From Buxus sempervirens (taxonomy: Eukaryota > Streptophyta > Magnoliopsida > Buxales > Buxaceae), in assembly GCA_947561395.2 (NCBI GenBank), contig OX387183.1, positions 42,948,901 to 43,012,900 on the forward strand: a stretch of 64,000 bases of DNA, in the 5' to 3' direction. Position 1 is the first letter of the stretch, and every line of letters starts with the position of its first letter. A program made the translations under genes and the position numbers. Shown here in pieces: positions 3,116-64,000 of this stretch. The notes below the pieces were generated by a model. It was not told where the DNA came from. It saw only the letters and a list, made by a program, of their open reading frames with translations, and did not search any database.

Positions 3116-3360
3116 ATTTTTCGATTTAAATGCCGGATACACTTGCCCCTCTTCATATCCGGACTCAAATGTCAGATACAAAGATTTGCTCGGCGAGATT
3201 CGCGTCGATTCCCCGACAAATTCGCGGCCGCATTAAATTTTTGAAATAATTTTGTTTGTATCCGGCATAAATTCAGTGTATCCGGCATTAAATGCCGGAT
3301 ACAAAGGACATGTAGTGTATCTGGCATTTAATGCCGGATACATTAAAATTGCCTATAAAA
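3116..3360 (+). promoter_or_regulatory. Dyad array and TATA box of the 3.2 kb solo LTR
   Basis: Near-palindromic 25-bp dyads lie at 3278-3302 and 3317-3341, 39 bp apart, with an extra half-site at 3258. A more degraded pair on the same 39-bp period starts at 3116 and 3155. The last dyad ends 12 bp before TATAAAA at 3354-3360. The arrangement marks the U3 promoter of this LTR. Binding of a protein is inference. Confidence 0.7.
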
Positions 3361-4622: not shown

Positions 4623-4686
4623 TGATCCGGCAACTCAGGCCGGATCACCTAAAGCTTGTGTGTATCTGGCAACTAAAGCCGGATAC
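4623..4686 (+). promoter_or_regulatory. Second dyad pair in the solo LTR
   Basis: Two further dyads, one beginning TGATCCGG at 4623 and one beginning GTATCTGG at 4662, again exactly 39 bp apart, each with the matching inverted half-site. No close TATA box is seen after this pair. Confidence 0.6.
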
Positions 4687-11393: not shown

Positions 11394-11535
11394 GTATTCG
11401 GCAACTCAGGCCGGATACAAGTGTCCTTCTTTGTATCCGGTGGACAATGCCGGATACAAGTAGACCTCAGTGTATCCGGCATCATAGACCGGATACATTA
11501 AGGTACTTGTGTATCCTGCCTGACATGTCGGATAC
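11394..11535 (+). promoter_or_regulatory. Four-dyad array, 39-bp period (left LTR U3)
   Basis: Four 25-bp dyads start at 11394, 11433, 11472 and 11511, that is exactly every 39 bp, each of the form GTATCCGG-N9-CCGGATAC with few mismatches. The array sits about 168 bp upstream of the TATA box at 11703. Confidence 0.8.
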
Positions 11536-13929: not shown

Positions 13930-14014
13930 CAAAGTAGCAGGATACTTTGGCCAGCCTTAGGAGTATGCGGATCAGGCAGGCCCTTTCAGATGAGGTCATT
14001 TCCTTCTTGACTGA
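13930..14014 (+). mobile_element. Fragment of the antisense DUF7745-type gene
   Basis: About 85 bp nearly identical to 17661-17745 within exon 2 of the antisense gene (GGATACTTTGGCCAGCC onward). It ends directly at the inverted primer binding site, with a short shared GATCCC at the join. Confidence 0.8.
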
Positions 14015-14034
14015 TCCCCAGCAGAGTCGCCAGT

Positions 14035-16345
14035 TGTGAGACATGGGAAAAATCACCGGTGTGATCATCCCTCCGTCAACACACGGGGATCGAAATAAAA
14101 ATGGGAGAGTCGCCACCATTCATGATTTTGGGGTGAGAATGGACACCAAAATATTTAAAAATCATCAAAAAGTGCAAAAATGCCAATTCTAGGGTAAAAA
14201 TAACCCTCCTTAAAAATTAAATCCAGAGATGGGTAAGGGGATTAGATTATGAACGGGGGAAGGTGTTAGTCACCCCCATTCATCCACACGAAGTGGTAGC
14301 CAAGTGTATGTTCATGCATAAAGAAAGTAAGAAAGCTTGCTAAACACCATAAAAAACCTTGAAAAATGTCAAATGTATGATATTTTCACATGAAGATCTA
14401 AATGGATTCTAGATCCTCTCTTATGTCAATATCATTTCTGGAATACCACAAAAAGATGGAAATCAAAGCACAAGTTGCTCAAAACCAAGTTGAATCAAAT
14501 CCGGGAAGTTTGGTAAAAAGTATGCCATTTGCCTTAAAATCATTCAAATCCAATATTAAATTGAACCAAACCAAATCCATTTGAAAGATTACAGTAAATA
14601 AGGGTCTCATGCAAAATTTCACTTCATTCCGATAGAAATCCTAGGAGTTATGCTCCTTTGAAGTTGCTGCTGGGGATTTTTAAAAGTGATAAGTGGGCAA
14701 CTTTGGAAAATTGTCTAGAAAAATCCACTACATAAAAATCCACGAAATTTGGTGTGATTGAAGTCTGTATGACCATATTTCAACAACAACTAGCCTCATA
14801 CAAAAATCCCTTCGGATGTGCCTTGGGTGGTCTCCCGAACAGGCCCCGAAGATCACAGATTTACCCAAAAAAGTACAAATGAACAGTTCTGAGTAAATCG
14901 GCTACCAATAATACAAATGGAATCCCAAAATTATGAAACCAATTGGATTTGAAAATAGACTCATAAAGGAGTACTCAAAAACAAAAATCACTCGAATCAG
15001 ACTTAAATCGAACACATGGCGCTCTATCGAAGTGACAAGTTCTGTATTTGAACCTGAACTGTCAACTCAACTTCGACAGAGAGGTGTCAAAAATCCGCTT
15101 GATAGAAATTTGTGAAATTTGGTGGACAAAAACTAGACAGCCTCACCTTTCCCATGGTTCTGGAATTGCCCCAAAATTCATCCGAATGATGAAGTTATGG
15201 GCGTCCGAAGTAAGGGTACAGGTGCTGTCAAGTTAAGCCATTCTTGAAGAAAAAACCAAATCTGAAAATTGATACAAATATGTGATTCGTGCAAGATGAA
15301 CACAAATACTTTAGAAATCATCCAAAAGGCATTCCAGAATTGATTGAGGCCATTTATTTGAGATTTATCATAATAAATGCAATAAACCCCAAATATGAGC
15401 CTATCCCGCCAAAATAGTGATATGTATGTGCAAGTGTAAAAAAACCGAACAAGATCAATAGCATGCATACATATTCATCCCAATAGGGTTCTAAGACAGC
15501 CTAGGGTTCCGTTCCATTATCGTTTCCCTCTGTTCTCTCTCCCCGTTAAACACGGTTCTTCAAGATAATCAAGGGTACTTTGAATATGGAACGGTTTATA
15601 ATCAATCAAAAAGGCCTTATGCTACATGGGTTCTAGCACTAGGGTCAATCCCCAGTCTCGTTTCTCCTAGATCCGCCTTCACGTTTTACGGCTAGGGGAA
15701 TCTTGAGATACTTTGAGCCGGGGAAGGATTTCCACACATACAAACAAGGCTTTACACTACAGAAAGGTCGAAGAAGAGATCTAGATCTAGGAATGTAAAG
15801 ATAGAAAATAAAAAGAAAAGTTGAGGCTTACCTGAGTTCTGGAGGCGATTCCGCAGCGGTTTTCTTCTTCTCTTGGAGTTCTTCTTTGGGAGAATTCAAA
15901 ACAAAAGTTGAGTGCCCTTTGCTTAAGGAGGAGCCTCCTATTTATAGGCGAAGGCTAGGGTTAGGGTTGGTGAGAATGGTAGACACAACATAATGTCTAT
16001 AGCCCACCAACCTTAATCCTAAGGTTATTTCCGCGATTTCCACTCATTTAATGTGGGATATGATGGTAAAAGTGAAAAGCTCTCGGAAAACCCTAATTTT
16101 GAGCAAAACTTATGTATCCGGTATATCAGACCGGATACACATGGGCCTTAAGGTATCCGGTACATGGCACCGGATACACTAAGCACTGCTTGTATCCGGT
16201 ACTTGTTACCGGATACGAAAAGGCCTGCTTGTATCCGGCTTGAGTTACCGGATACAGGTAAAAATTCATTTTCTTCAATTTCTGTGCTGGCTTTCCATGA
16301 GATAATGATTTTTTATGATTGTTTGTGCAATTTGGGGTGTCTACA
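14035..16345 (-). mobile_element. Inner inverted LTR with PBS and polypurine tract at its two ends
   Basis: 2.31 kb LTR in minus orientation, an inverted repeat of the left outer LTR. On its 3' side (14015-14032) is the inverted PBS, and on its 5' side (16346-16362) a polypurine tract (minus strand GCAAAGAGGGGCAGT). An LTR with a PPT before it and a PBS after it is the arrangement of a one-LTR circle or a tandem junction, not of either end of a simple element. Confidence 0.85.
16114..16255 (-). promoter_or_regulatory. Four-dyad array, 39-bp period (inner LTR U3)
   Basis: Dyads at 16114-16138, 16153-16177, 16192-16216 and 16231-16255, exactly 39 bp apart. The N9 centres differ from those of the other arrays while the GTATCCGG and CCGGATAC arms are kept. 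Confidence 0.8.
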
Positions 16346-26225: not shown

Positions 26226-26230
26226 ATGGC

Positions 26231-41657: not shown

Positions 41658-42919
41658 GACAGGTCACGGGAGCATGTGGCATGGGCATGGGCGGAGGCAG
41701 GGGGCAGGTCACAGTGGTGCAGGGGCGTGCGCTAAATAAAATTTTTTTTAAAAGCATAACATAATTACAGCGGTCACTAAACCGCCGTTAAAGCTATCAA
41801 AGACCGCCGCAAAAAGATTTAGCGACAGTCCTTTCATCGGCGAACAACTGTCAAGCCACGTAGTTTTTAGGGGCGGTCTTTGACCGCCGGTAAAGCTGTT
41901 CATTTTTGTTGTGATCAAGATCATCCCGCCTTGCCAAATGGGCACTCATTCTTCTTAACTGCGCATTTATCACCATCGGTAACATGGCGCCATTGATAAC
42001 CAGAATCTACTACCTGCACGGAGGTAATCGGAAATGGTTGTGTAGTGGGTTACAAACTGTGGGATTTCCTCTACTGCTCGTCCCCATTGCAATCTTATAC
42101 ATTCGAGATCGCATGTCAGGTGTCAGAAACGTTGCCTCACCAAAGCTAATGGCGTTCAGTGCTTTAATAGGACTCGTTACAGGCGCAATCGGCATTTCTT
42201 ACTCCTATGGTTTGTTGCTTCTTCCTGTATCAACATCCACACTCATCATGTCCACCAACCTGGTTTTCACGGCTTTCTTCGCCAAATTTATGGTGGGGCA
42301 GAAATTCACTCGCCTTTCCATTCTTGCAATTGTATTGATGACGATGGGTGCAGCCGTGGTGGTGATTGGCAGGGAGGGTGCTTCCAATTCTGGCTTGTCT
42401 AATGGCACATACATGTTGGGATTCTTCCTGACGATCATAACCGCAGCATTAACTGGTTTTACGTTACCGTGCAGCGAGTATGCCTTTGCTACGAGCACGA
42501 AGACCAGTACTTACTCTGTTGTTTTGCAGTTTTTGGCTGGCAGTACTTTCGTTGGCACCATCGTATCCACTATTTGGATGCTTATAAGCAAGGATTTCCA
42601 GGCAATTCCGAGAGAAGCCAGTGAGTTCGGGTTGGGCACGACGATGTACTATTTGCTACTGGCTTCAGCTGCGATGGCCTGGCCAATGCTGATGCTGGGT
42701 AACTACAGACTGGTCTTCTGCACGTCATCTTTGTTTGCTGGACATTTTGGGGCTTTGATGGTTCCTCTCGCAGAGGTTGCTGCAATCATCATGTTCAATG
42801 AGTAATTCACGAGAGAGAAAAGCTACTCATTCATTCTCTGCCTATTAGGCTTCACCTCTTACTTCTATGGAATCTACAGGGAAAGCGAGCAGCAGAAGCA
42901 AGCGCCCATCTTATCGTAG

Positions 42920-43200: not shown

Positions 43201-43204
43201 GGAC

Positions 43205-45539: not shown

Positions 45540-45629
45540 TGTAGACACCCCAAATTGCACAAACAATCATCAAAAATCATTATCTCCTGGAAAGCCAGCA
45601 CAGAATTTGAAGAAAATAAACTTTTACCT

Positions 45630-45771
45630 GTATCCGGATACTCAATCCGGATACAAGTACTCCTTCCTGTATCCGGATACTCATACCGGATACATGTGGG
45701 CCTTAGCGTATCCGGTACCATGTACCGGATACCTTAAGGCCCTTTGTTATCCGGTCTGACATACCGGATAC
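45630..45771 (+). promoter_or_regulatory. Four-dyad array, 39-bp period (5' LTR U3)
   Basis: Dyads start at 45630, 45669, 45708 and 45747. All keep TATCCGG and CCGGATA arms, with different N9 centres. About 155 bp upstream of the TATA box. Confidence 0.8.
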
Positions 45772-45927
45772 CTTAAGTTTGCTCAAAATTAGGGTTTTCC
45801 GAGAGCTTTTCACTTTTACCATCATGTCCCTCATTAAATGAGGGGAAATCGCGGAAATAACCTTAGGGTTTAGGTTGGAGGGGTTCTAGACATTAAGTTG
45901 TGTCTACCAATGACCTTAGCCCTTGCC

Positions 45928-45935
45928 TATAAATA
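45928..45935 (+). promoter_or_regulatory. LTR TATA box
   Basis: TATAAATA within GCCTATAAATAGGAG, at the same place as in the other related LTRs. Confidence 0.7.
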
Positions 45936-47818
45936 GGAGCCTCCTCCTTGAGCAAATGGCACACAACTCTTGTTTTGAATTCTCGCAAAGAAGAACTCCA
46001 AGAGAAGAAGAAAACCGCTGTGGAATCGCCTTCAGCACTCAAGTAAGCCTCAACTTTTCTTTTTATTTCCTGTCTTTACATTCCTAGATCTAGATCTCTT
46101 CTTCTACCTTTCTGTAGTGTAAAGCCTTGTTTGCATGTGTGGAAATCCTTCCCCGGCTCAAAGTATCTCAAGACTCCCCTAGCCGTAAAACGTGAAGGCG
46201 GATCTAGGAGAAACGAGACTGGGGATTGACCCTAGTGCTAGAACCTATGTAGCATAAGGCCTTTTTGATTGATTGTAAACCGTTCCATATTCAAAGTACC
46301 CTTGATTATCTTAAAGAGAACAGAGGGAAACGATAATGGAACGGAACCCTAGGCTATGCTAGAACCTATTTTGTTGAATCTATATGCATGTTGTATTGAT
46401 CTTGTTTGGGTTTTTACACTTGCACATACATATCACTATTTTGGTGGGATAGGTTCATATTTGGGGTTTATTGCATTTATTGTAATAAAGTTCAAATAAA
46501 TGACCTCAATAAAATTCTGGAGTATTTTAAAATGCTTTTCAAAGGTTTTGGATTCATCTCACACGAATCACACACTTTTTATCAATTTTCGGATTTGGTT
46601 TTACTCAAAAGTGGCTTAGCTTGACAGCACCTGTACCCTTACTTCGGACGCCCATAACTTCATCATCCGGATGAATTTTGGGGTGATTCCAGAACCATGG
46701 GAAAGGTGAGGCTGTCTAGTTTATGTCCACCAAATTTCATGAATTTCTATCGAACGGAGTTTTGACACTTCTCTGTCGAAGTTAAGTGGACAGTTCAGGT
46801 CCAAGTACAGAACTTGTCACTTCGACGGACCGCCATGTGTTCGTTTTAAGTCTGATTCGAGTGGTTTTTATTTCTGAGTACTCCTTTTTGAGTATATTTT
46901 CAAATCCAGTTGGTTTCATAATTTTTGGATTCCATTTGAATTATTGGTAGCCGATTTACTCAGAACTGCTCATTTGCATTTTTCTGGGTAAATCTGTGAT
47001 CTTCGGGGCCTGTTCGGGAGACCACCCAAGGCACATCCGAAGGGATTTTTGTATGAGGCTAGTTTCTCTGGAAAGATGGCCATACAGACTTCAATCACAC
47101 CAAATTTCACGGATTTCTATGTAGTGGATATTTCTAGACAATTTTCCAAAGTTGCCCACTTACCACTTTTAAAAATCCCCAACAGCAACTTCAAAGGAGC
47201 ATAACTCCTAGATTGTTCATCGGAATGAAGTAAAATTTTGCATGAGACTCTTATTTACCCTAATCTTTCAAATGGATTTGGTTTGGTTCAATTCAGAATT
47301 GGATTTGGATGATTTTAAGGCAAATGGCGTACTTTTTACCAAAATTCCCGGATTTGCCTCAACTTGGTTTTGGCCACTTTTACTTTGATTTCCATCTTTT
47401 GAAATACTCCCGAAGTGATATTGACATAAGAGAGGATCTAAAATCCATTTAGATCTTCATGTGAAAATATCATACATTGTTCCTTTTTCAAGGCTTTTTC
47501 ATGATTTTTAGCAAGCTCCTTATTTTCTTTTTAGCATGAACATACACTTGGCAACCACTTCGTGTGGATGAGTGGGGGTGCCTAACACCTTCCCCCGTTC
47601 ATAATCTAATCCCCTTACCCATCTCTGGATTTGATTTTCAAGTAGGGTTATTTTTACCCTAGAATTTGTCTTTTGGCTATTTTTGCCTACTTTTGTATCT
47701 TTGGTGTCCATTCTCACCCCAAAATCATGAATGGTGGCGACTCTCCCAATTTTTGCGTTGAGCCCGTGTGTTGACGGAGGGATGATCACTCCGGTGATTT
47801 TTTCCCATGTCTCACAAC

Positions 47819-47836
47819 TGGCGACTCTGCTGGGGA
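47819..47836 (+). other. Primer binding site
   Basis: TGGCGACTCTGCTGGGGA, two bases after the LTR end. Identical to 13615-13632. Confidence 0.85.
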
Positions 47837-49600
47837 CTTGTGGATTTAAGCCTATTTGTGTATATTCATGCTTTTTCTTCACTTTTGAATGCTTGCTATT
47901 TTGCTTATTTTGTGAATATTGTTGTATCTTAAATCTGAATGGGATGTTTAAAATTTTTCATGGATAAGGGCATGGTCATGTTGCTTGATTTGGTTTAAGG
48001 GAAAAACCCACATTGTTATATGACTTTTGCTATATTATGTGTTAGCATGGGTTTTGGGGTTAGAATGCCATGAAAAATATACAATGTTGGAAATCTGGAA
48101 ATTTCAGGTTTGTCTTGGGTATTCAAGCATGTTTCCCATGAATAAAGTTTTTTTTGTGCTTAATGTGTGCTTTATGCCATGCTTGGGATTTTGGGGTATA
48201 AGGGATGCACTTTTGAGCATGAAAAATCTGGAAATTTTAATGTATTTTGGGGAGATCTCAAGCATATTTTACCTCATTGAAACACTTTGGTATCATGTCA
48301 AGTAATGCTAAAATTTTAGGCTCCAATTTGGGGTAGAAATGGTACACTTTGAGCACGAAAAAGAGCATGAAATCTGGAATTTTAGGAATGCTTTTGGGAT
48401 TTCAAGCATGCTTCCATGGTTTAATTGTTGTTTGTACAAATGACATGTTTTGTATAACACTTTTTGGGCATGTAATATTTTTTGTGCATATTTAGTTGTT
48501 TTGGTGCTTGCTTGCTGGTATTTAGCTTCATTATTTTGTCATATATGCCTTGGCTTGAAATTGAATGCATGGCTACGAAAAAGAGTGGCAAGGGGCTGGG
48601 ACGTTGTGAATGTTACCACAATTTTAAATTGCACTTGAAACAATTTGCACAGCGTACCCTTTACCTATTAGGAAGTTGAACCATAAATGTGTGTAGTTTG
48701 GCGCACCGAGGTCGTGACTTCGGAAAGCGAAAGTGAAAACATTTACCTTAGAATTTGGGTCAATGATGTGATGACAATGGGATCTGTGATTCTATTCCGG
48801 GCATCACTAGACTTGAGTTCTAAGTTGCCAATTAAGCCAAAACCCAAAAACCATACGCTTGAAGGTGGAGAAACACGTTTTCGGCTAAAAGCATACAATT
48901 GCGTTTGGTGAATTGAGTGTAAATGTGGGAAGGCCGTTTGCATGTTTTACAGGCCAAGGTATAATGTGAATACCATATTGAATGAAGGTAATACAAGGTG
49001 GCAAGGTAAAGCCATGTTCTTTTCATAAATTTGGGGAATTTTGCAAGTATGATGTCCAAGCCCAATTTGGGGCAAGTTTTGAAGGTCAAATTAAGGTGAA
49101 CATCAATTGGGAATGAAAAAAATCAAATCTGGTGAAAAAATGAGGCAAAAAGGGCCATTTCGGCAATAACCGGTAACTCAGGCCGGTTAATAACAACTCT
49201 GTTCATATCCGGTATATACTTCCGGATATAAAGGCATATGCGTGAATCCGGTTATGATGACCGGATACAATAAGGCATATTCTTATTCGGAATATTATAC
49301 CGGATACGTTCAAAAAATGCACAAATCGGCTGTTCAGCCCAAATTTTCAAAATAAAATGCCTAAAACACTGTGGATCATCCTTAGGAACCCCGAAAAGAA
49401 CATAAAAAAAATGTTCCAAAATACAAAAAAACAAAAAAAAAAACAAAAAAGAATAAAATAAAATATTCTTTCAGGATTTAACCTAAGTTTGAAAATCAAA
49501 GAGGAAACCAAGGTGTCATATTTTTTGACACCAACTCAACTCAAACATGTGTTAGTCAAACTTTTGAACTTGAAAACTGAGAAAATTCAGCAAATTTGAA
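47837..49600 (+). other. Leader region of the large element, first part
   Basis: No coding sequence recognised in 1.8 kb. Three similar blocks around 48.03-48.45 kb share GGAAATTT and TTTGAGCA phrases. A four-dyad array is at 49166-49307. Confidence 0.6.
49166..49307 (+). promoter_or_regulatory. Four-dyad array, 39-bp period (leader)
   Basis: Dyads start at 49166, 49205, 49244 and 49283, exactly every 39 bp. This copy is the most diverged (ATAACCGG, ATATCCGG, GAATCCGG and TTATTCGG left arms), but right arms CCGGATA are kept in three of four. There is no gene or clear TATA box close by. Confidence 0.65.
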
Positions 49601-49618
49601 GAGAAAAAAAAAAACCTT

Positions 49619-50915
49619 TGGTTGGTTATTTTTATCAATCAAATCAAAACATTTGTGGGATACTTGGAAGCCCTAGAATATTCCAAGACACCTTTGGTTG
49701 TTTATTTTTATCAATCAAATCAAAACATTTGTGGGATACTTGGAAGCCCTAGAATATTCCAAGACACCTTTGGTTGGTTATTTTTATCAATCAAATCAAA
49801 ACATTTGTGGGATACTTGGAAGCCCTAGAATATTCCAAGACACCTTTGGTTGGTTATTTTTATCAATCAAATCAAAAAATTTGGGACCCTTGGAAGCCCT
49901 AGAATATTCCATGAAAACCTTGGTTGGTTATTTTTATCAATCAAATCAAAAAAAAATTGGGATACTTGGAAGCCCTAGAATATTCCATGAAAACCTTGGT
50001 TGGTTATTCTTATCAATCAAATCAAAAAAAAATTGGGACCCTTGGAAGCCCTAGAATATTCCATGAAAACCTTGGTTGGTTATTTTTATCAATCAAACCA
50101 AAAAAAAAAAAAATTTGGGACCCTTGGAAGCCCTAGAATATTCCATGAAAACCTTGGTTGGTTATTTTTATCAATCAAATCAAAAAAAAATTTGGGACCC
50201 TTGGAAGCCCTAGAATATTCCATGAAAACCTTGGTTGGTCCTTTTTACCAATCAAGTCAAAAAAAGTGGGACCTCTGGAAGCCCTAGAATATTCCATGAA
50301 CCCTTGATTGGTCTCCTTTTTACCAATCAAATCAAATCAAAAATTGGGACCCTTGGAAGTCCTAGAATATTCCATAAAAAACCCTTGATTGGTCTCCTTT
50401 TTACCAATCAAGTCAAAAAAAATCGGGACCCTTGGAAGCCCTAGAATATTCCATAAAAACCTTGGTTGGTTATTTTTATCAATCAAATAAAAAAAAATTT
50501 GGGACCCTTGGAAGCCCTAGAATATTCCATGAAAACCTTGGTTGGTTATTCTTATCAATCAAATCAAAAAAAATTGGGACCCTTGGAAGCCCTAGAATAT
50601 TCCATGAAAACCTTGGTTGGTTATTTTTATCAATCAAACCAAAAAAAAAAAAATTTGGGACCCTTGGAAGCCCTAGAATATTCCATGAAAACCTTGGTTG
50701 GTTATTTTTATCAATCAAATCAAAAAAAAATTTGGGACCCTTGGAAGCCCTAGAATATTCCATGAAAACCTTGGTTGGTTATTTTTATCAATCAAATCAA
50801 AAAATTGGGACCCTTGGAAGCCCTAGAATATTCCATGAAAACCTTGGTTGGTTATTTTTATCAATCAAATCAAAAAAAAATTGGGACCCTGGGAAGCCCT
50901 AGAATATTCCAACAC
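49619..50915 (+). repeat. Tandem array, about 76-bp unit, 17 copies
   Basis: Each unit contains GGTTGGTTATTTTTATCAAT, an A-run of 4-13 bases, GGGACCCTTGGAAGCC and CTAGAATATTCCATGAAAA. The first units have GGGATACTTGG. A run of consecutive variants at about 49.99-50.22 kb recurs in the same order at about 50.53-50.76 kb, showing duplication of a multi-unit block. An A-rich tract closes the array at 50.96 kb. Confidence 0.95.
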
Positions 50916-51130
50916 AAAATCAAAACAACAAAAAAAAAAAAAAAAAAAAAAAAACAACAAAATTTTTTTTGGACTGGTGTTCACCTGACCTATCTGTCTA
51001 CATGTATAAGGGTGTGTTTCAAATTAAATTGAAGCTGACTTATGTCTTTGTTTTTCTTAGTCAGGTACATTCAACCCAGGTGCACTTATTTGCAGTCATT
51101 GCTCCCGTGACCAGATCCAAAGCAAGAGCC

Positions 51131-54100
51131 ATGAATACTGAAGAGAACCAAGCCCAAGCTACCATCCCCACTCAGGACTTTACTCAGCTGCAGGAGCAAG
51201 TGGCCGGTCTGGCCAAAATTCTGGGAGACTTACTGGCGGCTCAAGCCCAGCAGGCCCAAGCCCAAAATCAGGCGTCGACTTCTCATCCGGCACCACCACC
51301 TCAGGCCTATATTCCGCCTCCGGCTCAGCCCATGCCTGAGCCCATTTCTGAACCAGTCCCTGAACCCATTCTGATCAGGGAAAATACAGTAGAGTCTGAG
51401 AAAGAGCTAGAAAAAGAAAAGGCTAGGGATGAGATGGAAAAGAAAATGCTGCTCAGGATAGAGAGGATCCAGGCGGAGTTGAAGGAAGTGAAGGGGGGAG
51501 GCAGCCATGCAGGCACCACCTTCGAGGACCTATGCATGTACCCGGACGTCTGTCTACCGGCTAAGTTCAGGTGCCCAGACTTCGATAAATTTGATGGCAC
51601 GGGCTGCCCATTGAGCCATCTGAAATTATACTGCGGGGCCCTGTGCCAGTTTGGCCGGGATGATGGCATACTGATCCAACTCTTTCAAAGGAGTCTAACC
51701 GGGTCAGCCCTTCGGTGGTTCGCTACAGTGGACCATGGAAGAATCAGGAGGTGGAAGGACCTAGCCGACGCTTTCCTGGACCAATATAAGTTCAACTCTG
51801 AGATCGTGCCGGACCGGTACGACATGATGAGGATGACCAAGGGGAAGGATGAACCGGTACGGCAGTACGCCAAGAGATGGAGAGAGGCCGCCTCCCAGGT
51901 CAGGCCACCTATGCAAGAGCCGGAGATGATCTCCACATTTCTGGGCACACTGGGCCAGCCCTTCTACAACCATCTGGTGGGTCAGATAACCACCAACTTT
52001 GCAGCCCTGGTACAGGTAGCGGACCGGATTGAAGAAGGGGTCAGGTCAGGACGGCTGATAGACTACTCTACTCTGACTGGGCAGTCTGAGTCCTCGGCCT
52101 CCATGGCCCAGAAGAAAGGGGCCGGATTCAAAAAGACGGGGGCCCGAAAGGAAGGGGAGGTGAACCTAGTCCAGGCTCCTCCGGCCAAGAAGCCACTGCA
52201 CGTCAGCATCTCTGCACCCCAACAGGCCCAGCAGGCCCAGCAGTTGTACCAGACCCCGCTGAATGTCAACTTCTCCCCTTCTGTGCCAGCTAACACAAGG
52301 AGGACTTTTTCTAAGGAGGAGCGGGATGCCTGGTTCGCAGCAAGAAAGAACCGGGTTTTCACCCCTCTACCCATATCGCTGTCCCAACTACTGCCAACCC
52401 TGCTGAAAGGGGAATACTTGACTCTGAAGGAGCCTAACCCAAATGCCCCGAAGGGGAGAAATTTTGACACATCGGTCACCTGTGATTTCCACATGGGTGC
52501 ACCGGGGCATTCTACCGATAACTGCTGGGTGCTGAAGCATGCGGTCCAGGACCTATTGGACCAGAAGGCTTTGGTCTTTAACACTGCTGCACCGGCCCCG
52601 TCCGGGAATGATATTGGGCAGAACCCTCTGCCGTACCACAATGGGGCAGGCGCATCCAACTCCATCACTGCCATATTCACCACGAGAAGGGCCTTTGACC
52701 CATCTCAGCTTATAGCCCCTGTGGGGACTACAGTCCAGGTCCGATTCTTCCCAGAGGAGGACGAAGAGGAGATCAACATGGTCTCCCAAAAAAATAATCT
52801 TGCTGCTGAGGACATAAGCTCCTCCTTAAACCGGGTCTCTTCTCTGATGGCCCAGATAAATACTGCAAGGCCCCCACTGGTCTTCAATTGCAGTCCACCC
52901 ATTTGCTCCCCATCCAAGCCGTCTAAGGCTCCACTGGTCATCAATCTTCACCCCACCACTGCTTCCATCACTTCTTCTGTCCCCACAAATTCCAAACTTC
53001 AACCCTTGGTTGTAAATATGCAGCCAGCCCATACTATCCCTAAACCGGCTCATACATCCTGGTCCAAACTCCAGCCATTAGTGGTTAACATCCCTAAACT
53101 ATCCTATTCTGAGGCCGCTGTACCATGGAATTACAGCGAGGGAATCACGGCTACGGTTCCAACGGTTAGAAACCTGAACCAGGAGGAGGTGAACCTCATG
53201 ACGAGGTCGGGGAGATGTGCAGGGGGTGAAGAGAAAGAAAAAGAGACAGAAGTAAAGAAAGAAAAAAAAGAAAATGAAGAAAAAAGAAAACAGAAGGGAA
53301 AAAATAAAGTGGGAGAAGACACCCCCCAGGGTGCAGAAAATGAGGCAGCAGACCTCATAAAAATAATAAAGAAAAGTGAATTCAATCTTGTGGATCAGCT
53401 AAACAAGGTCCCGGCCCAGATTTCAATACTGGGCCTTTTGCTGAATTCCGAAAAGCATAGGGATGCATTGTTAAGGGTGCTACAGAGTGCACACGTATCC
53501 CAGACCATCGATCCAGACCAGCTTGGCAAAATGGTTGGTCAAATCTTGTCACATAATGTGATAAGTTTCTCAGAAGGTGAGATCAGCCCAGGTGGGTGTT
53601 ATCATGTGGACCCTTTGCACATCACTGTGCTTTGTAAGGGCTGTATGGTTGCACGGGTTTTAATTGACAACGGGTCAGCGTTAAACGTTTGCCCGTTAAT
53701 CACTTTTACCAAGCTGGGTCTGGACCAGTCAAGGATCAAAAGAAATGGGCGGATAGTAAGGGCTTTTGATAGCTCCAAGACCCACTCCCTAGGGGAGATT
53801 GAACTGCCGGTCACAATTGGGCCGAATATCTTTAACATCACATTTGAGGTGATGGATATACCCGCAGCCTTCAATCTGCTCCTAGGAAGGCCGTGGATAC
53901 ATTCGGCTAGGGCAATACCATCCACGCTCCACCAAAGGGTGAAATATGTAAGAGGGCAAAGGGTGATAACAGTCCTAGCCAAAAACTTGGTGCCGCCCAT
54001 TGTGTCACCTGATGTACCATTAATCAATGTGGACTTGACTGTCGACAAGATTGCATTCCACTCATTTCAATTTGAGGCGGTAAATTACATACCTGGGGGT

Positions 54101-54154
54101 GTGAGAAAAAGAAAGAAAAGGGGACCACTGCAGAAAGGATGGTCAAGAAAGTGA
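51131..54154 (+). mobile_element. gag-protease of the large element
   Basis: Encodes capsid and protease. The ATG at 51131 (MNTEENQAQATIP) follows an acceptor-like TTTTTCTTAG at 51060. Parts: a Pro/Gln-rich N-terminus, a charged coil near 51.4 kb, capsid core (AKFRCPDFDKFDGTGCP, IQLFQRSLTGSALRWF, RQYAKRWREAASQVRP, TFLGTLGQPFYNHL), a zinc-knuckle-like FHMGAPGHSTDNCW near 52.5 kb, a Lys/Glu-rich linker at 53.2-53.3 kb, and a protease-like part with VLIDNGSALNVCPL near 53.66 kb and NLLLGRPWIH near 53.88 kb. The frame is open throughout. Confidence 0.88.
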
Positions 54155-57100
54155 TGGAGAAATACCACTTTCACCCAGGGAAAGGCCTGGGGATCAATCT
54201 GCAAGGGATGGTGGAGCCAATCACGGCTAAGAAACTGATCCCCAAGGGAGGGTTGGGCTTCAAGCCCAGAGGCTGGAGAAGAATGAAATATGAAGAAGGG
54301 GAGAGCAGAAGCAAAGGAAAACTCCCGCATCTGAGGGTGAACTTTCCAAAACCCTCCTACATAATCCAAATTTCTCCTCCCATGGACCAGTCCAAGCCTC
54401 CATACCGAAACATTAACCCATTTCAAAAGCCTTTTGTTTCGGCCCTACAACCCTATAACCCATCTCCAATACTGGGAGCAACAGATGGGCCTGGACCACA
54501 GCCCGAGCAGCAGGTGGACTTTTCTGAAGATGTTGGTGCATTCTTCGCCATGACGGAAGGCGAAAAGACAAGGGCAGACATGGAACTGCCGTTTATTGAC
54601 TGGGCCGCTGTAAAGGTTCCAGGCAAGGTCATTTCTGAACTGGGCCCCGTAGCAGAAAAGGGCAGTACCCACCCGGTGATGATGGCATCGGATGCTGGGC
54701 TTGAGGAGCAGGCTTTCCCTATTTCCCCTGCTCCCCAAAATTTTGTACTGAACAATTGGGAGGAAACTCCCCTTACCTTTGAAGCAGCGTTAGTTCGGCA
54801 AACTGACGCGGCTTCCAAAAAAAAACTCCAATAGTGGAATGCCATTTCCCTGAAGGTTCTAATGGGCCATCGTCTTCAGGGGAATTATGTTTAGAAGGCC
54901 CACAAAAAACCCAAAAAGATTTTTCTATTTTTTCTAGAAAATTTAAATTTTTCAAAAAGGTCCAAACCACTTATGAACCATATAATCAGACCGAATTGGA
55001 CCAGGTTGAATATGACTTCGACCTTGAGCTCGACTTTGATCTCATGGGGATCGAAGAAGAGATCGAGGTCGAAGAAGAAGACGTTCCAAAAGAAATTGAA
55101 TACCAATTGGAACGTCATGAAAAGGGGGTCCAACCTAATATTGAGGAGACCATATCCATAAACCTTGGGACCAAAGATGACCCAAAAATTGTGAAAATCG
55201 GGTTGTGCTTGTCTGCTGTGCAGAAAAATGAAATGTCACAGTTCTTGGCAGACTATAAAGATGTGTTTGCTTGGTCGTATCGGGACATGCCGGGGTTGGA
55301 CACTGACATGGTGGTGCACAAGTTGCCAATTTTGCCAGGGGTTAAGCCGATTAAGCAGAAGCTGAGAAGATTGAAGCCTGAATGGACCTTGAAGGTCAAG
55401 GACGAAGTGGTCAAACAATTTCAAGCCGGATTTTTGGCAGTCTCTACGTACCCGGAGTGGCTCGCAAACATAGTACCGGTACCAAAGAAGGACGGGAAGG
55501 TCCGAATGTGCGTAGACTATAGAGACTTGAACAGGGCAAGCCCAAAGGACGATTTTCTGCTTCCACACATCGACATTCTGGTCGATAATACTGCGGTACA
55601 TAGCCTGTTTTCCTTCATGGATGGTTTATCGGGATATAATCAGATCAAGATGGCTAAGGAGGATCAAGAGAAAACAGCATTTATCACACCTTGGAGCACA
55701 TTCCACTATACAGTCATGCCGTTTGGGCTTAAGAACGCTGGGGCAACATACCAGCGGGCCATGACTGCACTATTTCATGACATGATCCATAAGGAGATGG
55801 AAGTCTACGTGGATGATATGATTGTCAAATCATGCAAAGAGGAGGACCACTTGATCAATCTGAAGAAAGTATTCGATCGGCTCAGGAAGTACAGTCTACG
55901 GCTTAACCCGGCTAAGTGCATCTTTGGGGCTACATCAGGGAAATTACTGGGGTTTATAGTGAGCTGAAGAGGAATTGAAATTGACCCGGCTAAAGCCAAG
56001 GCCATAATTGAAATGCCAGCACCCCGAACCGAGAAGGAGGTTTGTGGTTTTCTTGGAAGGATTCAATACATAAGCCGGTTCATAGCACAGCTCACTGCTA
56101 TCTGTGAACCGATTTTCAAGCTTCTAAGGAAAGATAACCCTACGGTCTGGAATGAGGACTGCCAGCAGGCATTTGACACAATAAAGAGGTATTTGCTAAA
56201 CCCACCTGTGCTAGTGCCACCAACTCCAGGAAGACCACTGATCCTGTACTTGTCAGTGTTGGAAACGTCGATGGGATGTGTCTTGGGGCAACATGATGAG
56301 ACTGGTAGAAAAGAAAGGGCAATTTACTATCTGAGTAAAAAATTCACAGAATATGAAGCTAAGTACTCATCATTGGAGAAGACTTGCTGTGCTCTAGTGT
56401 GGGCCACTCAGAGGCTAAGGCATTATTTCCTTAGTCACTCCACACTATTGATATCCCGGATGGACCCGCTGAAATATTTATTTGAGAAACCAGCACTGAC
56501 TGGCAGGACGGCAAAGTGGCAACTACTATTGTCCGAGTTTGACCTCACATACATCACCCAGAAGGCGATCAAGGGTCAAGCCATAGCTGATCACCTGGCT
56601 GCACATCCTCTGCCAGAATATCAACCCTTGAAGACCAACTTCCCAGATGAGGCAATTCTGTACACTGAAGAGGAGGACAATGAGGGTTCTTGGCAGATGT
56701 TCTTTGATGGGGCCGCCAATATGAATGGGAACGGAATAGGGGCACTCTTGGTTAAACCAGATGGTTCACACATCCCGATTGCAGTAAAGCTGAGATTCCA
56801 GTGCACCAATAACATAGCAGAATATGAGGCATGCATAATTGGATTGCAAGCAGCCATGGATCATGGAGTAGAGGAACTTGACGTATACGGGGATTCGAGT
56901 CTTATCATCTTCCAAACAACTGGTGAGTGGAAAACCAAGGATCACAAATTGATCCCCTATCACCAGTATTTGGAAGAAATAAGCACCAATTTCACTCGAA
57001 TTTCCTTCAACTATATGCCAAGGGCCAAAAATCAGTTTTCGGATGCTCTAGCAACCTTGGCTTCAATGGTCAGCATACCAGAAGGGGTAGACATCAAACC

Positions 57101-58421
57101 ACTGGAAATTGAGGTCCGAGATGAACCAGCTTATTGTCTCGTTCTAGAGGGAGCACCAGAAGAAGAAGCTCCGTGGTTTCAAGATATCAAAAATTTCTTG
57201 AACAATCGGAGTTTGCCAGAAAATGCCACTGCTACTGAGAAGAGGACAATACAGAGATTGGCTGGTCAATTTCTGCTAAGTGGTGGACATGTGTACAAGA
57301 GGTCACATAATGACATTCTGCTAAGATGCGTAGCCAAGGCTGAATCGGAAAGGTTAATCGAGACGGTACATGGAGGAGTCTGTGGGCCCCATATGAGTGG
57401 ACACATGTTGGCTAAGAAGGTCCTGAGTCTAGGATATTACTGGACGACCATGGAGCATGATTGCTGTATACATGTTAGGAGGTGCCATCAATGCCAAATA
57501 TATGCAGATAACAAGCATGCACCCCCAGGCGAGCTGCACAACATGACATCACCCTGGCCCTTCTCCATGTGGGGCATAGATGTCATTGGCATGATTTCAC
57601 CTAAGGCATCAAACGGACATAGATTCATCCTGGTGGCCATTGACTATTTCACTAAGTGGGTGGAAGCAGCTTCATATGCGAACATCACAAGCAACCATGT
57701 TATTAAATTTTTGAAGCACAATATCATTTGTCGCTATGGACTGCCAAGTGCCATAGTATCAGACAATGCTTCAAATATTAAGAACAAGGACATGAAGAAA
57801 ATGTGTGAACAGTTTCAGATCACCCACCACAAGTCAGCTCCGTATAGACCAAAGATGAACGGGGCATTGGAAGCAGCCAACAAGAATATAAAGAAAATCA
57901 TTCAGAAGATGGTAGTAAGTTACAAAGATTGGCATGAAATGCTACCACTTGCTCTACATGCCTACAGAACCTCGATCCGAACTTCAACTGGGGCAACCCC
58001 GTACTCCCTAGTCTATGGGATGGAAGCAGTCTTACCCGTGGAAGTGGAAATCCCATCACTCCGAGTGCACATGGAAACAGAACTAGAAGAAGCCGAATGG
58101 GTCCAGTCGAGACATGATCAACTTAACCTGATAGAAGAAAAGCGGTTGAAAGCGCTTTGCCATGGACAGTTGTACCAGAAGAGAATGGCCCGGGCCTACA
58201 ATAAGAAAGTGAGGCCCAGAACTTTCCAAGAAGGAAACTTAGTGCTAAAGAAAATTCTACCATTTTTGGAAGATCCTCGTGGTAAGTTCAAGCCCAATTG
58301 GGAAGGCCCATATGTCGTCAAGAAAGTCCTATCAGGGGGAGCAATCATCTTAGCAGAAATGGATGGGTCAGATTTTCCTGAGCCCATTAACTCTGATGCG
58401 GTAAAAAGGTATTTTCCTTGA
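54139..58421 (+). mobile_element. G-patch and pol region of the large element
   Basis: Starts overlapping the end of gag-protease in another frame. In order: a G-patch-like part (FHPGKGLGINLQG then KGGLGFKP) near 54.2 kb; an acidic linker; reverse transcriptase (PEWLANIVPVPKKDGKVRMC, FMDGLSGYNQIK, YVDDMI) at about 55.2-56.1 kb; RNase H (YLSVLETSMGCVLGQ) at 56.2-56.6 kb; a second RNase H (MFFDGAANMNGNG, EYEACIIGL, YGDSSLI) at 56.7-57.1 kb; and integrase (CHQCQIY, GIDVIG, SDNAS, HLKSAPYRP-like) at 57.3-58.4 kb, ending AVKRYFP. Change of frame between gag-pro and pol is usual for this group. Nearly whole, about one to three breaks. Confidence 0.9.
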
Positions 58422-59379: not shown

Positions 59380-61072
59380 CTAGTCTCCTAGCTGCTCCTC
59401 AAGCTCCCGAATCCGAGCTGCCTGAGCTGCAATGACTCCTGAAGCCCCCTCTGTAGCGGGATCACTCAAGAAGGAAATGACCTCATCTGAAAGGGCCTGC
59501 TTGATCCTCATACTCCTAAGGCTGGCCAAAGTAGCCTGGTACTTCTGCCGGATCATGCGGACCTCGAAGCAACGGGCCTGCCTCTGCTCCTCCAGCTTCT
59601 CTTCCGCGGCAATACGGCGTGAGATCTGCTCCTCAAGCTGCCTCTCCGGATAAGCGCCCTGTATCCTGAGCTCCTGGGCCTCCCGTACCCATATCTGCTG
59701 AAGCCGCTTATGAGAAGCCCGCTCAGACTCTAGAATGTCCTCATAAGTGGGAGCCAAGACTACTGGAGGATCTTCGGGTATTGGGGCCTGAGTCTGTATC
59801 TGCTCCTTGATCCAGAAGAGATAATCCTTCACATGGGCTTTTGAGAAGACTGGACCATGCATAAAGCGGACATAAGACCACTCCTTCATCAACCAGGCAT
59901 TCAACTTCATAGAAAGGGGCCCAAGACGATCCTCATATCCACATGGGATGATAATCCCCTGGGTCACACGGAACTGATGAAGGACCCGCAGAGGAAGATA
60001 CAGCATTGCATGCTTCAGGCCCGCTAGGATCAGAAAGTTGCGGTCACGGAAGCTAATCACTGTCTCTACATTAGGCTGATAAGTACCAGGCCATCTCACC
60101 TGGTCATCCTGAAGCGAGCCCAAGAAAGTGAACCAGCCCTGTTTGCCCCCTGGAATATCGGGGCACCCCCTGTTGCTCATCAAGAGAGGGACTTTTAGAC
60201 TCGGGAAGAAGTGTCGATTGATCTCTTCAATCTGGCTCAAATGATCAAGGAGCCAAAGCTGCAAAGGAAGAGAGATGTATCAGCACATTATATAGAAAAA
60301 AAAAAAGAAGCAAAAAAGGCAAAAAGAAGGCCAAGAAGCAAGAAAAAAAAAACTTTTTTACCTGCAGGATCTGGGCACATGCTAGGAAGCGTTTCGACTT
60401 CCTATTGTAGCAGTCGGTTAAGGCCTGATATATCCCAGCTAAAATCATAGGGGCCAACCTCTCCCGCTCCCTAACCTGGCATATCACGGAAATCAAGGCC
60501 AAGTCCACCTCATCATCATCCCGTGGGAAAAGCAACTGGTTGACCACTATCAGGGTCAACGCATTGAATCGGGCCTCCTTATCTTCCCCCCTCAAAAGCT
60601 TCTCAGTCAAAAAAGCCTTAGATAGGGTCAAAAGGGTGTCAGAATCCCCCAAGTCCTTCTTCCCTATGCCCAAAAAAGTAGAAGCTTCCTTCTTGTAACT
60701 GGGCCTAAGAGGTGGATTCACCACCTTCTCATCAAACCTCAGGCCCAGGATGGTTTCCACCTCTTCAATGGTTGGGGTCATCTCATGGGTCCCAAAACGG
60801 AACAAGTTGAGATCAGGAACCCGATGACCAATCATGGCCTCTATAATCTCCCACCTAAAGGGAACCTTGGGAATGAGCAGGGTATGGCCTAGATTAGTAG
60901 AACCCCATCTCCTCTCCTCATCTAGGGTCATAGAGTTAACCCACCTTGTGTAAAAGGAATCCACAGGGTTGTACCTAGTGAGATTTTGGGGTTTTGATCT
61001 AAAAGGCTGTTTTGCAGGGGAGGCAGTGTGGACAGACAATAATGGGGCAGAAGATGATCCGGATTCCATTGG
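59380..61072 (-). CDS. Antisense extra gene of the Tat element, DUF7745-type, two exons
   Basis: Opposite in strand to gag-pol. Exon 1 runs from the ATG at 61072 (MESGSSSAPLLSVHTAS) to 60362; a 103-bp GT-AG intron (60361-60259, donor CAG/GTAAAA, acceptor TTTGCAG) separates it in phase 0 from exon 2 (60258-59380). The total is about 529 codons. Exon 1 has RYNPVDSFYTRWVNSM and FGTHEMTPTIEEVETILGL; exon 2 has RDRNFLILAGLKH and LYLPLRVLHQFRVTQG, the pattern of plant DUF7745 proteins, which are common in and near retroelements. The last third is a charged coil ending RIRELEEQLGD. The biochemical role is unknown. The promoter has a dyad array 12 bp from a TATA box. The second copy at 16.9 kb keeps only exon 2. 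Confidence 0.78.
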
Positions 61073-61180
61073 ATTTGACGGGAGCAAGCTAGAACTCAAG
61101 AGGAGGAAGAAAAAGGCGAAAAAGGGGGTTTCTAAACTCAAAAACTCGTAAAAAATGCTCAAATCCCGAGGCAGGTTGCA

Positions 61181-61186
61181 TTTATA
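61181..61186 (-). promoter_or_regulatory. TATA box of the antisense DUF7745-type gene
   Basis: Minus strand GCTATAAATGC, about 110 bp before the ATG at 61072 and 12 bp after the last dyad of the array. Confidence 0.65.
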
Positions 61187-61198
61187 GCATCTTTTAAC

Positions 61199-61339
61199 AT
61201 ATCCGATAACTCAGACCGGATACAAAGGCTTTAGTAATATCCGGATAAGTATACCGGATACAGAGGATTCCATGAATATCCGGTATGACATACCGCATAC
61301 AAAGACCAATCAATGTATCCGGTATGTCAGACCGGATAC
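61199..61339 (-). promoter_or_regulatory. Four-dyad array upstream of the antisense gene
   Basis: Dyads at 61199-61223, 61237-61261, 61276-61300 and 61315-61339 (spacings 38, 39 and 39 bp), of the same GTATCCGG-N9-CCGGATAC form as in the LTRs. Gap to the TATA box: 61187-61198, 12 bp, the same as in the solo LTR at 3341-3354. Confidence 0.8.
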
Positions 61340-61560: not shown

Positions 61561-64000
61561 TCATCCCCCGCGTCCTCGGCCACGTCCACCTCTACGGCCT
61601 CTCCCCCAAAGTGCTCGGCCTCTAGAGTATGCAAGGATCCGCTCGGCTGCATGGCGAGGATGCCGACCTACCACCTGCTGAAGCTGATACTCCAAGCAAT
61701 AATCCTCGAGATCTGGGGGAGGAGCAGAAGCAGAATCTGGGGAAGAAGCCTCGGGCTCAGCAGCAACCGGCCCAACTGGGCCCTCATCCAAAGCATCCTC
61801 TGCTCTCGCAGCTCCAGAAGGCCCAGCATCAGCAGCAGAGGGGCCAGGATCAGAAGTAGCTGAGTCCACAGAAAAGAGAAAAATCAGAAGACTCAGATAT
61901 AAGGAAGAATAAAAGAGGAGAATTAAAAGAAGATCATACCAGGAATGTCTGCAGAAGGAGCAGGAGGATCCGGCTCGTCAAGACCAGCCGCTGGGGCATC
62001 CTCGGGATCAGAGGCCCGAGCAGGAGATGGGTCAGGAATCAGGAAATCATGCTCAAAGAAGGCATCCTGATCATGGACCGGGCCCTGCACAAGTCAAACA
62101 AGCATATCAGAATAGCAGAAACAGGAAAATGAAAGAAAAGAAAATATAAGAAGGCCAGATACCTATCTAGCCTGGAGCTCAGCAACTAAGGCCTCCAGCT
62201 CCCTGATCCGGGCATCCCGCTGGGCCACGACCGCATCATGCTCCGCGATCATATCATCGATCGCAGCCCGCTGGCTCTCGAACCGGTCCCGGATAGTATT
62301 CAGCTCGTGTACCTGCCAACAAGAACAGAAGAAGGGTCAGAAATGCATCAGGGAGGAAAAAAAGATGAAAATATAAAGAGTACAAGACTTACGGTGTCCT
62401 CATGGATCCGGATACAGATCCCGCCAATCTCGGTCACCCCGGCACGAGTGGGTCGATCCATCAAGCATCCGATAGACACCCTCTGGAACCACTCGTCGTA
62501 ATCTCCGGCTACTGTGAGCCCCTCTGCATCCAGGAAATGATCGAACTGATCTACATCAAAACCTGGGAGGAGTGTGTCGGGACCCACAGGAGGAGGAGGG
62601 ACGGGGATGCGAAGTGCGCTGGTGTACTGGAAGTACAGACACTCTCCTAAGTACATCACCCTACCAAGCCTCCCGAGGAAGCACTGGTAGGGCTGACGTC
62701 GTCGATCTCTATCGAAGGCGTCCTGTACCGCCATCTCACGAGCCACCCCAACATCCACGTCATCAAATCGGGACAGAAGGAGCTGCAAAAAAGGGAAACT
62801 ATCAGGTACAGTCAAAATACAGGACAGGAAATAAAAGAAAAGGAAAAGGCTTACATCAGATCGGCGGGCACGGTCTAAGTGCACCCGGGCAGTGCGAGGC
62901 TGGCTCCTATCGGCATCTCGAACCTGGGCCGACCATCGCAGGGCCACAGAAAAATCTGCAACCTCAGGAACCGGAGAGGGGCGGAATAAGGTCATATAGG
63001 TGTACATGAACACCTGGCAAAAGAAAAATCAGTCAAGAAAAGATAAAGCCTAATGAATTAAACCAGACAGATGAATGCAATACCTGTAGAATCTGCCAGA
63101 AGAACCGGCTGCTAACTCCATCGCCTCTCGGGGATGCCAGACCTCGAATTGCACGGCACAACCCGGCCAAGATGGTCCCATAAATGAGTCGGCCCCATGC
63201 CAGCTGGCGGGTCTGATGGAAATCTCTCAAGGCATCCAAGAAAAGTGGGCTGACACCGGTGGTATCCTCAGGAAAGAAGCAGCTCCCCAACATCAGCAGG
63301 AATACATGTCGGAAGATCGGTGCAAAGGCTGTATCCTCCACAGAGATGGTCTCATGCCTCCTCTCGAAATGTCGAGCCAGACTCTCCCGCAGCCAACTAA
63401 TGGAGAGCCGGCCACTCCGCCCATCCCAAGCAGTAGGAGGCAGGGCCTGATATCCCAGAAGAAGTCCCATATCCTCCGCAGAAGGCCGCTCCAAGACAAT
63501 GGTCCGCCCCGTCAGAGGAATGCCAGTAATCATCACAAAATCAGAGGGGCGGATCCCCAGCTCCACGTCTGGCAGATGAAATGACTGCGTCTCCGGGAAA
63601 TATCTCTCCATCATGGCAAAAATAAGTGGACGGTCGGCTCTGAATGAGGGAATACTGAGGAAGTGATCCAGGTGGCACCTCCCAAACTCCCGCCTGAGTG
63701 CCGGAGAAAGTGACTGTGCCAACTCACTGAATCTCCCCCAGCTGCCTCGCAAGTGGGAAGAGTGATAGGGAAGCGGCACATCTGCCCTGATGCACATGGA
63801 AGGATGGCTATCCAAGCCATGGAGGAGCTCTGTATCCTGAACAGAGGCCCTCAACTCCTCAGAGACCCCGGCCAGAGCCACAGCAACCCCCTCCTGAGCC
63901 GTATCTCTGGCTCTGCCTCGGCCTCTGCCACGGCCTCTCTCGCCCTCAAGGGCCTGATCCTGAACTCTGCCTCTGCCTCGGCCTCGACCTCGAGCAGGTG
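61561..64000 (-). CDS. Plant-mobile-domain (PMD) gene, six exons seen, start outside window
   Basis: Exons on the minus strand: beyond 64000 to 63084; 63013-62855; 62782-62393; 62312-62172; 62084-61940; 61859-61561 (stop 61563-61561). All joins keep phase. Exon 1 begins in an Arg-Gly-rich stretch and carries the PMD core: FHLPDVELGIRPSDFVMITG, FLLMLGSCFFPEDTTG, LAWGRLIYGTILAGLCRAI and SRFFWQILQ. PMD proteins such as MAIN and MAIL1 act in the nucleus in gene expression and transposon silencing, and the domain is also widespread inside plant transposons. Exon 4 is a coil with RIRELEALVAELQ; exon 5 is acidic; exon 6 is Pro/Ala/Ser-rich and ends in a second RG-rich tail (GRGRRGGRGRGRGG). Intron 4 seems to use a GC donor (CAG/GCTAGA). 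It may be the second antisense gene of the Tat element or a separate element's gene. Confidence 0.75.

Follow-up and report, generated by a model that had tools for sequence, protein, structure and literature searches.

Palindromic dyad arrays at long terminal repeat and antisense-gene promoters of Buxus sempervirens retrotransposons: possible operators of an element-encoded regulator

Within a 64,000-nucleotide stretch of the 676.5 Mb Buxus sempervirens assembly (C3:42,948,901-43,012,900, referred to here as the window), an array of four palindromic dyads lies immediately upstream of an antisense gene of the DUF7745 type. Array and gene sit inside a plus-strand long terminal repeat (LTR) retrotransposon, and dyads of the same form recur at LTR promoters. 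From the sequence and arrangement of these arrays, we consider it somewhat probable that they are the operator sites of a dimeric regulator which would be encoded by the elements and would also control their own antisense genes. The features on which this proposal centers are as follows.

61199-61223, 61237-61261, 61276-61300 and 61315-61339, minus strand: four dyads GTATCCGG-N9-CCGGATAC, upstream of the antisense DUF7745 gene
61180..61186, minus strand: TATAAAT box of the antisense DUF7745 gene, 12 bp past the proximal dyad and 16 bp past the last CGG
60362..61069, minus strand: exon 1 of the antisense DUF7745/PMD gene, 236 codons, splice sites predicted by eye
59380..60258, minus strand: exon 2 of the same gene, 292 codons and stop, C-terminal part coiled-coil-like by eye
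3278..3341, plus strand: proximal dyads of an Ogre-type 3.2 kb LTR, 12 bp before TATAAAA at 3354

Dyad arrays and their distance from TATA boxes

On the minus strand the proximal dyad of the antisense array ends at 61199 and is followed by 12 bases and then by TATAAAT from 61186. A preliminary description of this DNA had placed four 25-bp dyads 12 bp before the antisense TATA box and had pointed to the same distance in the 3.2 kb LTR, where the last dyad ends at 3341. Both placements were confirmed; one of the four antisense dyads is exact, the other three carry 1-2 arm mismatches, and their steps are 38, 39 and 39 bp. The 3.2 kb LTR had been called unrelated-looking. It proved to be Ogre-type and not wholly unrelated. 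One full-length Ogre-type relative (loci L055/L056) encodes a sense DUF7745 open reading frame (ORF) between LTR and gag; the LTR dyads of this relative end 11 bp before TATA.

Allowing up to 3 mismatches, we found 24 dyads in the window compared to 0.05 expected from shuffles and, at up to 2 mismatches, 52,258 in the whole genome compared to 89 for a reversed-pattern control. Chance is therefore excluded. To characterize the positions of these sites we used the exact dyads among the matches listed from the start of contig C1, of which 96 were distinct and 90 were examined. All 90 are housed in arrays of LTR retrotransposons (89 classified by script, with loci L070 and L071 put in the LTR class by hand, and L080 by eye), so the dyads at random genome positions that the preliminary description had named as a refutation were not seen. 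In the examined loci, 94 of 108 arrays could be classified by flank signature; the other 14, inspected by eye, looked like truncated or diverged representatives of these classes. The step from one dyad to its neighbor was exactly 39 bp in 220 of 231 cases. Outside this genome, eight public viral contigs contained one exact dyad apiece, and a search of such contigs for a relative of the window pol found none.

The distance to the TATA box is likewise fixed in many copies. The combination CCGGATAC-N(0-30)-TATAAA occurs 3,450 times genome-wide (336 in the control), and among 100 matches listed the gap was 11 bp in 47 and 12 bp in 45, or 92 together; of the 47 distinct spacers in this set, 41 were 11 or 12 bp long. 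Eight antisense loci (L014-L021), chosen by dyad position with the TATA box not known beforehand, all had four dyads, a TATA box at 12 bp and a match to DUF7745 exon 1 downstream. A ninth candidate, L022, turned out to be an LTR of Ogre type, in which TATA follows at 11 bp. The antisense arrangement was also seen in seven loci selected for having both dyad and TATA (L059-L065), with four dyads detected in six of them and three in one. These fixed spacings support, as an inference, the earlier view that one module is common to LTR and antisense-gene promoters.

Conservation and recoding of the dyads

When LTRs of 10 elements were compared, 2.9% of sites differed in the arms, as against 24.4% in the N9 loops and 24.6% in the spacers between dyads; the corresponding values were 9.7% for the left flank, 6.7% for the right flank and 7.4% for the LTR body. 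Gap cells made up none of the array or left flank, 3.2% of the right flank and 5.8% of the body. Within one LTR subtype (seven elements), varying columns numbered 27/78 in loops and spacers, 9/80 in the left flank and 4/64 in the arms. Thus the arms and the 39-bp step are conserved, and in most comparisons divergence in loops and spacers is about three times that in the flanks. CpG retention in the LTRs did not differ clearly between the arms and the rest.

The 5' and 3' LTRs of single insertions gave a different picture. In eight such pairs, 3/624 sites differed in loops and spacers, 4/512 in arms and 28/4,429 in the LTR body. We therefore rejected hypermutation of loops after insertion, as the LTR pairs show no excess of loop or spacer change. 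Given the low difference within pairs and the high divergence between elements, loops and spacers mostly turn over from one generation of elements to the next, not through mutation of a resident copy. Loops in reverse complement were seen in two of the 10 elements (E6 dyad 1 and E9 dyad 3), and the loops at L029:212, L030:183, L051:208 and L052:191 are the exact reverse complement of those in other elements; such inversions are a sign of strand switching between arms.

Changes in the two arms are often matched. Among 354 dyads from related, and hence non-independent, copies, changes in both arms exceeded expectation for T2->G (10 observed, 0.68 expected), T4->A (7 and 0.50) and G8->A (12 and 2.29), and T4->G and G1->T were also often matched. 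The outer pair of the N9 loop was symmetric in 231 cases compared to 135.7 expected. A family-specific change of this pair (C-G versus T-A) was considered; the evidence comes from few families, and we do not claim it. Palindromic arms with matched changes, free loops, a fixed step and a fixed TATA distance would fit cooperative binding of symmetric dimers to DNA.

To sample DUF7745 genes without regard to the motif, we took 10 genes from 118 scored of 5,751 PF24924 candidates, these being 10 of the first 14 entries that matched profile positions 18-20 to 200-203. CCG-N11-CGG dyads were present in all 10. Four different words were found, all of which fit this rule: GTATCCGG in one gene (L094, with TATA again at 12 bp), GCCCGTA-N7-TACGGGC in six (step 28 or 27 bp; the six regions are related copies), AACCGCA in two (steps 28, 41 and 28) and AACCGAA in one (steps 38 and 39). 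Counting CCG-Nk-CGG across the 10 regions gave 21 cases at k=11 and, over the rest of the range k=3 to 25, no more than 2 at any value. No region is without an exact case, and the count of a region was equaled in 0-22 of 500 shuffles, L087 being the weakest. Two of the other words are also abundant genome-wide, with 47,405 GCCCGTA dyads (495 in the control) and 13,121 AACCGCA dyads (66 in the control). The only PF24924 matches listed between 4.1 and 17.9 Mb of C1, at 10600809 and 14559809, are both preceded, at 335-337 bp, by an exact AACCGCA dyad. Separately, arms reading GTATCCGA and/or TCGGATAC recur in several dyads of L054, L057 and L058, spread over more than one array, and are possibly a further word.

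The layout is kept when the word changes. L044 and L062 contain GCCCGTA-type LTRs with two plus three dyads and a TATA box 14 bp past the last. Measured from the last CGG, TATA lies at 16 bp in both, as it does in the 3.2 kb LTR of the window, in L031 and in the antisense promoter; the distance is 15 bp in L055 (a second TATA-like match gives 10) and 24 bp in the DUF7745 promoter L084. Upstream of its array, L062 shares 67-71% identity with the GTATCCGG-type LTRs L031, L053 and L066. This identity and the kept CGG-to-TATA distance indicate that homologous LTRs keep the layout and have every dyad rewritten. An LTR and a DUF7745 promoter of one element that share a word were seen for GTATCCGG only. 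Such recoding of all dyads in one invariant frame would fit a factor that evolves with the element, and the element-encoded, VANC-like factor suggested in the preliminary description gains support from this change of motif among related families under a fixed geometry.

On the other hand, a simple link between DUF7745 genes and this particular dyad is not supported, given that only one of the 10 genes has GTATCCGG. Nor does the word follow the distance between the proteins: the DUF7745 protein encoded by ORF1 of the Ogre-type element shares GTATCCGG at 38% identity, while relatives that are 75-85% identical use other words (one protein per word was compared).

A candidate regulator and competing explanations

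In the proposed mechanism, each dyad would be bound by a symmetric dimer that reads CCG-N11-CGG together with flanking bases, and several dimers, spaced in a fixed register, would act together; at many promoters this would take place directly before the TATA box. Most likely the regulator would be element-encoded, probably a PMD/DUF7745-family product of the antisense genes, and would act on the LTR, the leader and the promoters of its own antisense genes, either as activator and anti-silencer or as autoregulator. By changing the flanking bases of their dyads together, families would acquire private control circuits; families with a common word could cross-regulate or parasitise each other.

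The antisense genes are the obvious candidates for this regulator, as their protein sequences are conserved and they have the same putative operators at their own promoters and end in what looks by eye like a coiled-coil tail. A Pfam profile scan of the gene downstream of the array identified DUF7745 (E 1.1e-16) and PMD (E 4e-11), and PF24924 and PF10536 are both present in the antisense genes. Comparing intact copies only, we obtained dN/dS values of 0.06-0.17 for exon 1 (6 comparisons) and 0.16-0.53 for exon 2 (5 comparisons); purifying selection thus acts on exon 1. When the antisense pieces were scanned with Pfam, only PMD/DUF7745 and no DUF1985 was found. Transposase_28 (PF04195), which marks antisense ORFs of Retand, was not found in the scanned pieces either; exons past the window end and small exons lay outside the scan. 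A search for protein relatives in a set of 5.8 billion sequences gave one distant match only.

Several observations weigh against this proposal. The LTR array of the host element lies 156 bp from its TATA box, not 12, and the LTR class of this element has TATA at 155-156 or 166-167 bp. Of the seven arrays in the window, two lie at 12 bp, three at 156-167 bp and two have no TATA within 600 bp, so the shared distance that was first described from the window holds for two of the seven arrays here. Genome-wide the short gap is common. In the other LTR subtype, represented by a single pair, divergence in loops (8.3%) and spacers (9.5%) was close to that of the left flank (8.7%). G1->A changes were unmatched between arms (2 observed, 2.79 expected). 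CpG decay at C6 affected 13 left arms, 13 right arms and no dyad in both, with no clear departure from independence; this contrast is weak because only 0.48 matched cases were expected. Many DUF7745 copies are broken, and an intact ungapped exon 1 was found in 7 of 17 loci. Exon 1 had no relative in a PDB sequence search, and its single-sequence structure model (pLDDT 37) was useless and was not used. After LTRs with arrays, neither L057 nor the 10 kb of L053 gave a match to the DUF7745 exons of the window; the notion of a DUF7745 gene behind every TATA-proximal array was not borne out in L057. Finally, there is the mismatch described above between words and DUF7745 identity, for which the explanation could be that few residues determine specificity, that another protein (such as the second PMD) sets it, that families borrow factors from each other, or that the binder is a family of host factors.

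The last of these possibilities is the most serious competitor, and we regard it as unlikely: a host transcription factor family would bind the dyads and be hijacked by the elements. Heat-responsive LTRs hijack heat-shock factors in this way, and GARP or MYB-type factors reading GGATA or GATAC are what we take to be candidate host binders. A host factor would explain how one word is common to two element classes with 38%-identical DUF7745 proteins, and TATA-proximal placement suits an ordinary activator. However, CCG-N11-CGG and the layout of the array are common to at least four words, and all dyads have been swapped between homologous LTRs. A set of host paralogues with exactly this rule is possible but less simple.

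It could also be speculated that the arrays mark silencing, not activation, as CCGG-rich targets of DNA methylation or small RNAs, whether as a by-product or as a copy-number brake. The consensus dyad does have two CpG/CHG sites, and tandem targets can attract RNA-directed DNA methylation in VANDAL elements (PMC10398659). This is improbable, however, as small RNAs should also target the loops and spacers, which in most comparisons are the fastest to diverge. Marginally less probable still are hairpins in genomic RNA (for packaging, dimerisation or stability) or cruciforms in DNA. By position, the full-length sense transcript would include the leader, antisense-region and 3' LTR arrays, and there is co-variation at several arm positions, but the 11-12 bp lock to TATA would have no meaning for RNA, and in the antisense and Ogre promoters a transcript started by the TATA box would begin downstream of the dyads.

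The array flanks beside TATA resemble one another, in part through low complexity, which is suggestive of homology. When loops and spacers of the antisense array were compared in the same orientation with those of four other four-dyad arrays, the collinear order ranked 2, 9, 3 and 6 of 24 dyad orders and is suggestive only. An origin without function, in which template switching during reverse transcription keeps the palindromes and the TATA spacing descends from one ancestral promoter, would accommodate these flanks and the strand switching seen in E6 and E9, but it is very improbable because 41 of the 47 distinct dyad-TATA spacers keep a length of 11 or 12 bp, different words keep CCG-N11-CGG, and loops and spacers are not changed in excess between the two LTRs of an insertion.

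Returning to the element-encoded regulator, a broader scheme can be put forward tentatively, as one we hold to be rather less than evenly likely. In this scheme, Tat/Ogre elements would have private operator codes in which PMD/DUF7745 dimers read CCG-N11-CGG and a lineage-specific word. The regulator would be produced from antisense or ORF1 transcription units with the same operator; whole families would change code by recoding tens of thousands of sites, and others would free-ride on a word held in common.

The host element and related systems

The remaining features of the window and of the host element, including those past the window end (in locus L013), are as follows.

45540..47816, plus strand: 5' LTR of the host element, starting TGTAGACACC; primer-binding site (PBS) TGGCGACTCTGCTGGGGAC at 47819
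45630..45771, plus strand: four-dyad array in the 5' LTR, steps 39, 39 and 39; LTR TATA at 45928, 156 bp away
49166..49307, plus strand: four-dyad leader array between PBS and gag, first dyad ATAACCGG...CCGGTTAA; TATA sought within 600 bp, none found
50903..58421, plus strand: gag-pol frames of the host element, several ORFs, with reverse transcriptase, RNase H, a second RNase H (RVT_3) and then integrase
63084..63998, minus strand: PMD exon of the second antisense gene (PF10536, E 4.3e-14)
L013:1441-1504: two dyads at the second antisense gene, ~1.2 kb upstream of its start codon (by eye)
L013:2128-2269: array in the 3' LTR of the host element
4623..4686, plus strand: second dyad pair of the 3.2 kb LTR, first dyad TGATCCGG...CCGGATCA with both arms changed; TATA sought within 600 bp, none found
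11394..11535, plus strand: four dyads in a further LTR copy, 167 bp from TATA
16114..16255, minus strand: four dyads in an inverted LTR copy, likewise 167 bp from TATA

The pol domains at window:55968-58418 are RT_RNaseH (87-191), RVT_3 (246-364) and rve (531-628). An additional RNase H between RNase H and integrase is given as a criterion for the Ogre/Retand branch of Tat in the relevant part of PMC6317226, and on this basis we placed the host element in that branch of Tat (Ty3/gypsy). The PMD extra ORF, an Ogre trait, is also present. A PBS complementary to tRNA-Arg is a further criterion for Ogre; the PBS observed in the host element is TGGCGACTCTGCTGGGGAC. After pol come the antisense DUF7745/PMD gene and then a second antisense PMD gene; the 3' LTR begins 2,038 bases past the window end. 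The first codon of the second antisense gene is also past the window end (L013:223) and its further exons extend down to ~61560, both placed by eye; its dyads lie 1.4 kb past the window end.

Arrays thus occur at five places in the host element: both LTRs, the leader, the DUF7745 promoter and the second antisense gene. Other copies of the element have 3-4 leader dyads each (7/7), and the second antisense gene has two dyads in 7 of 8 other copies, with one detected in the eighth (L046). The first leader dyad, ATAACCGG...CCGGTTAA, has its arms changed alike at window 49166 and in 5 of 7 other copies (L033, L034, L036, L037 and L039, the last in reverse complement); it was undetected in L035 and L038, and the remaining leader dyads mostly retain ATCCGG. 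Between the leader array and gag there is a 76-bp repeat present 17 times (49611-50911).

Elsewhere in the window, a long 22-bp tandem repeat at 43201-45040 contains GTATCC 40 times, with 33 of 39 intervals equal to 22 or 44 bp; 22 bp is also the offset from the right arm of one dyad to the left arm of the next, possibly by coincidence. At 13932-14032 an inverted LTR with its PBS is fused directly to a DUF7745 gene fragment (matching 17659-17754), apparently a rearranged or deletion derivative. The LTR copy at 23896-26230 is without the dyad region that the 10.8 kb copy has. A purine permease-like gene piece (PF16913, E 7.1e-74) lies between elements at 41915-42805.

Arrayed palindromes bound by a dimer that the element itself encodes are familiar from viruses: papillomavirus E2 sites and the EBNA1 family of repeats are of this kind, and some stand beside a TATA box. 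The arrays described here resemble them in being palindromic, arrayed and in some cases TATA-adjacent; they differ in belonging to plant retroelements, in having several private words and in having a putative binding protein. No report of operator arrays of this kind was found in searches of an open-licence library, where most subscription papers are missing.

PMD genes are known from Ogre/Tat elements, occurring in 57% of Ogre elements (PMC6317226), and PMD-A clades are described as Gypsy-encoded only (PMC5418596). The sections of these two papers that bear on PMD tie no cis sites to the genes and raise anti-silencing use of PMD captured by Mutator-like elements as speculation. Antisense accessory genes with their own promoter are likewise described in other plant Gypsy elements. 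Grande gene23 is antisense, is transcribed from its own promoter and has been proposed to be regulatory (PMC7264820), while Retand antisense ORFs contain TRP28, with a proposed DNA-binding role (PMC11963269). The corresponding sections of those reports do not describe an operator array, TATA-locked palindromes or family recoding, and the genes here are PMD/DUF7745, not TRP28. Should the proposal be correct, the unexplained antisense PMD genes of plant Gypsy elements would gain a concrete, testable role tied to cis sites in the same element, with several motif families supplied by the dyad words. The PMD host genes MAIN and MAIL1 act in silencing, according to PMC5418596. A regulator of this kind might be their ancestor or a relative.

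The closest likeness is to VANC proteins, which bind tandem motifs in VANDAL DNA transposons (PMC5735166, PMC10398659). As far as the VANC sections of these papers go, both systems have non-coding arrays of a short motif, motifs that differ between related families and rapid turnover of the repeats. In contrast to VANDAL elements, the hosts here are LTR retrotransposons with a palindrome, a fixed step and often a fixed TATA distance. VANC21 motifs share one orientation, whereas the dyads are inverted and have a step of 39 or about 28 bp; VANC proteins carry DUF1985, whereas the antisense proteins are PMD/DUF7745. A VANC protein binds its motif and removes DNA methylation; for the candidate regulator here, binding and anti-silencing would be predicted activities. 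If the proposal is right, a control circuit that is self-encoded and lineage-coded, like VANC in DNA transposons, would exist in LTR retrotransposons too.
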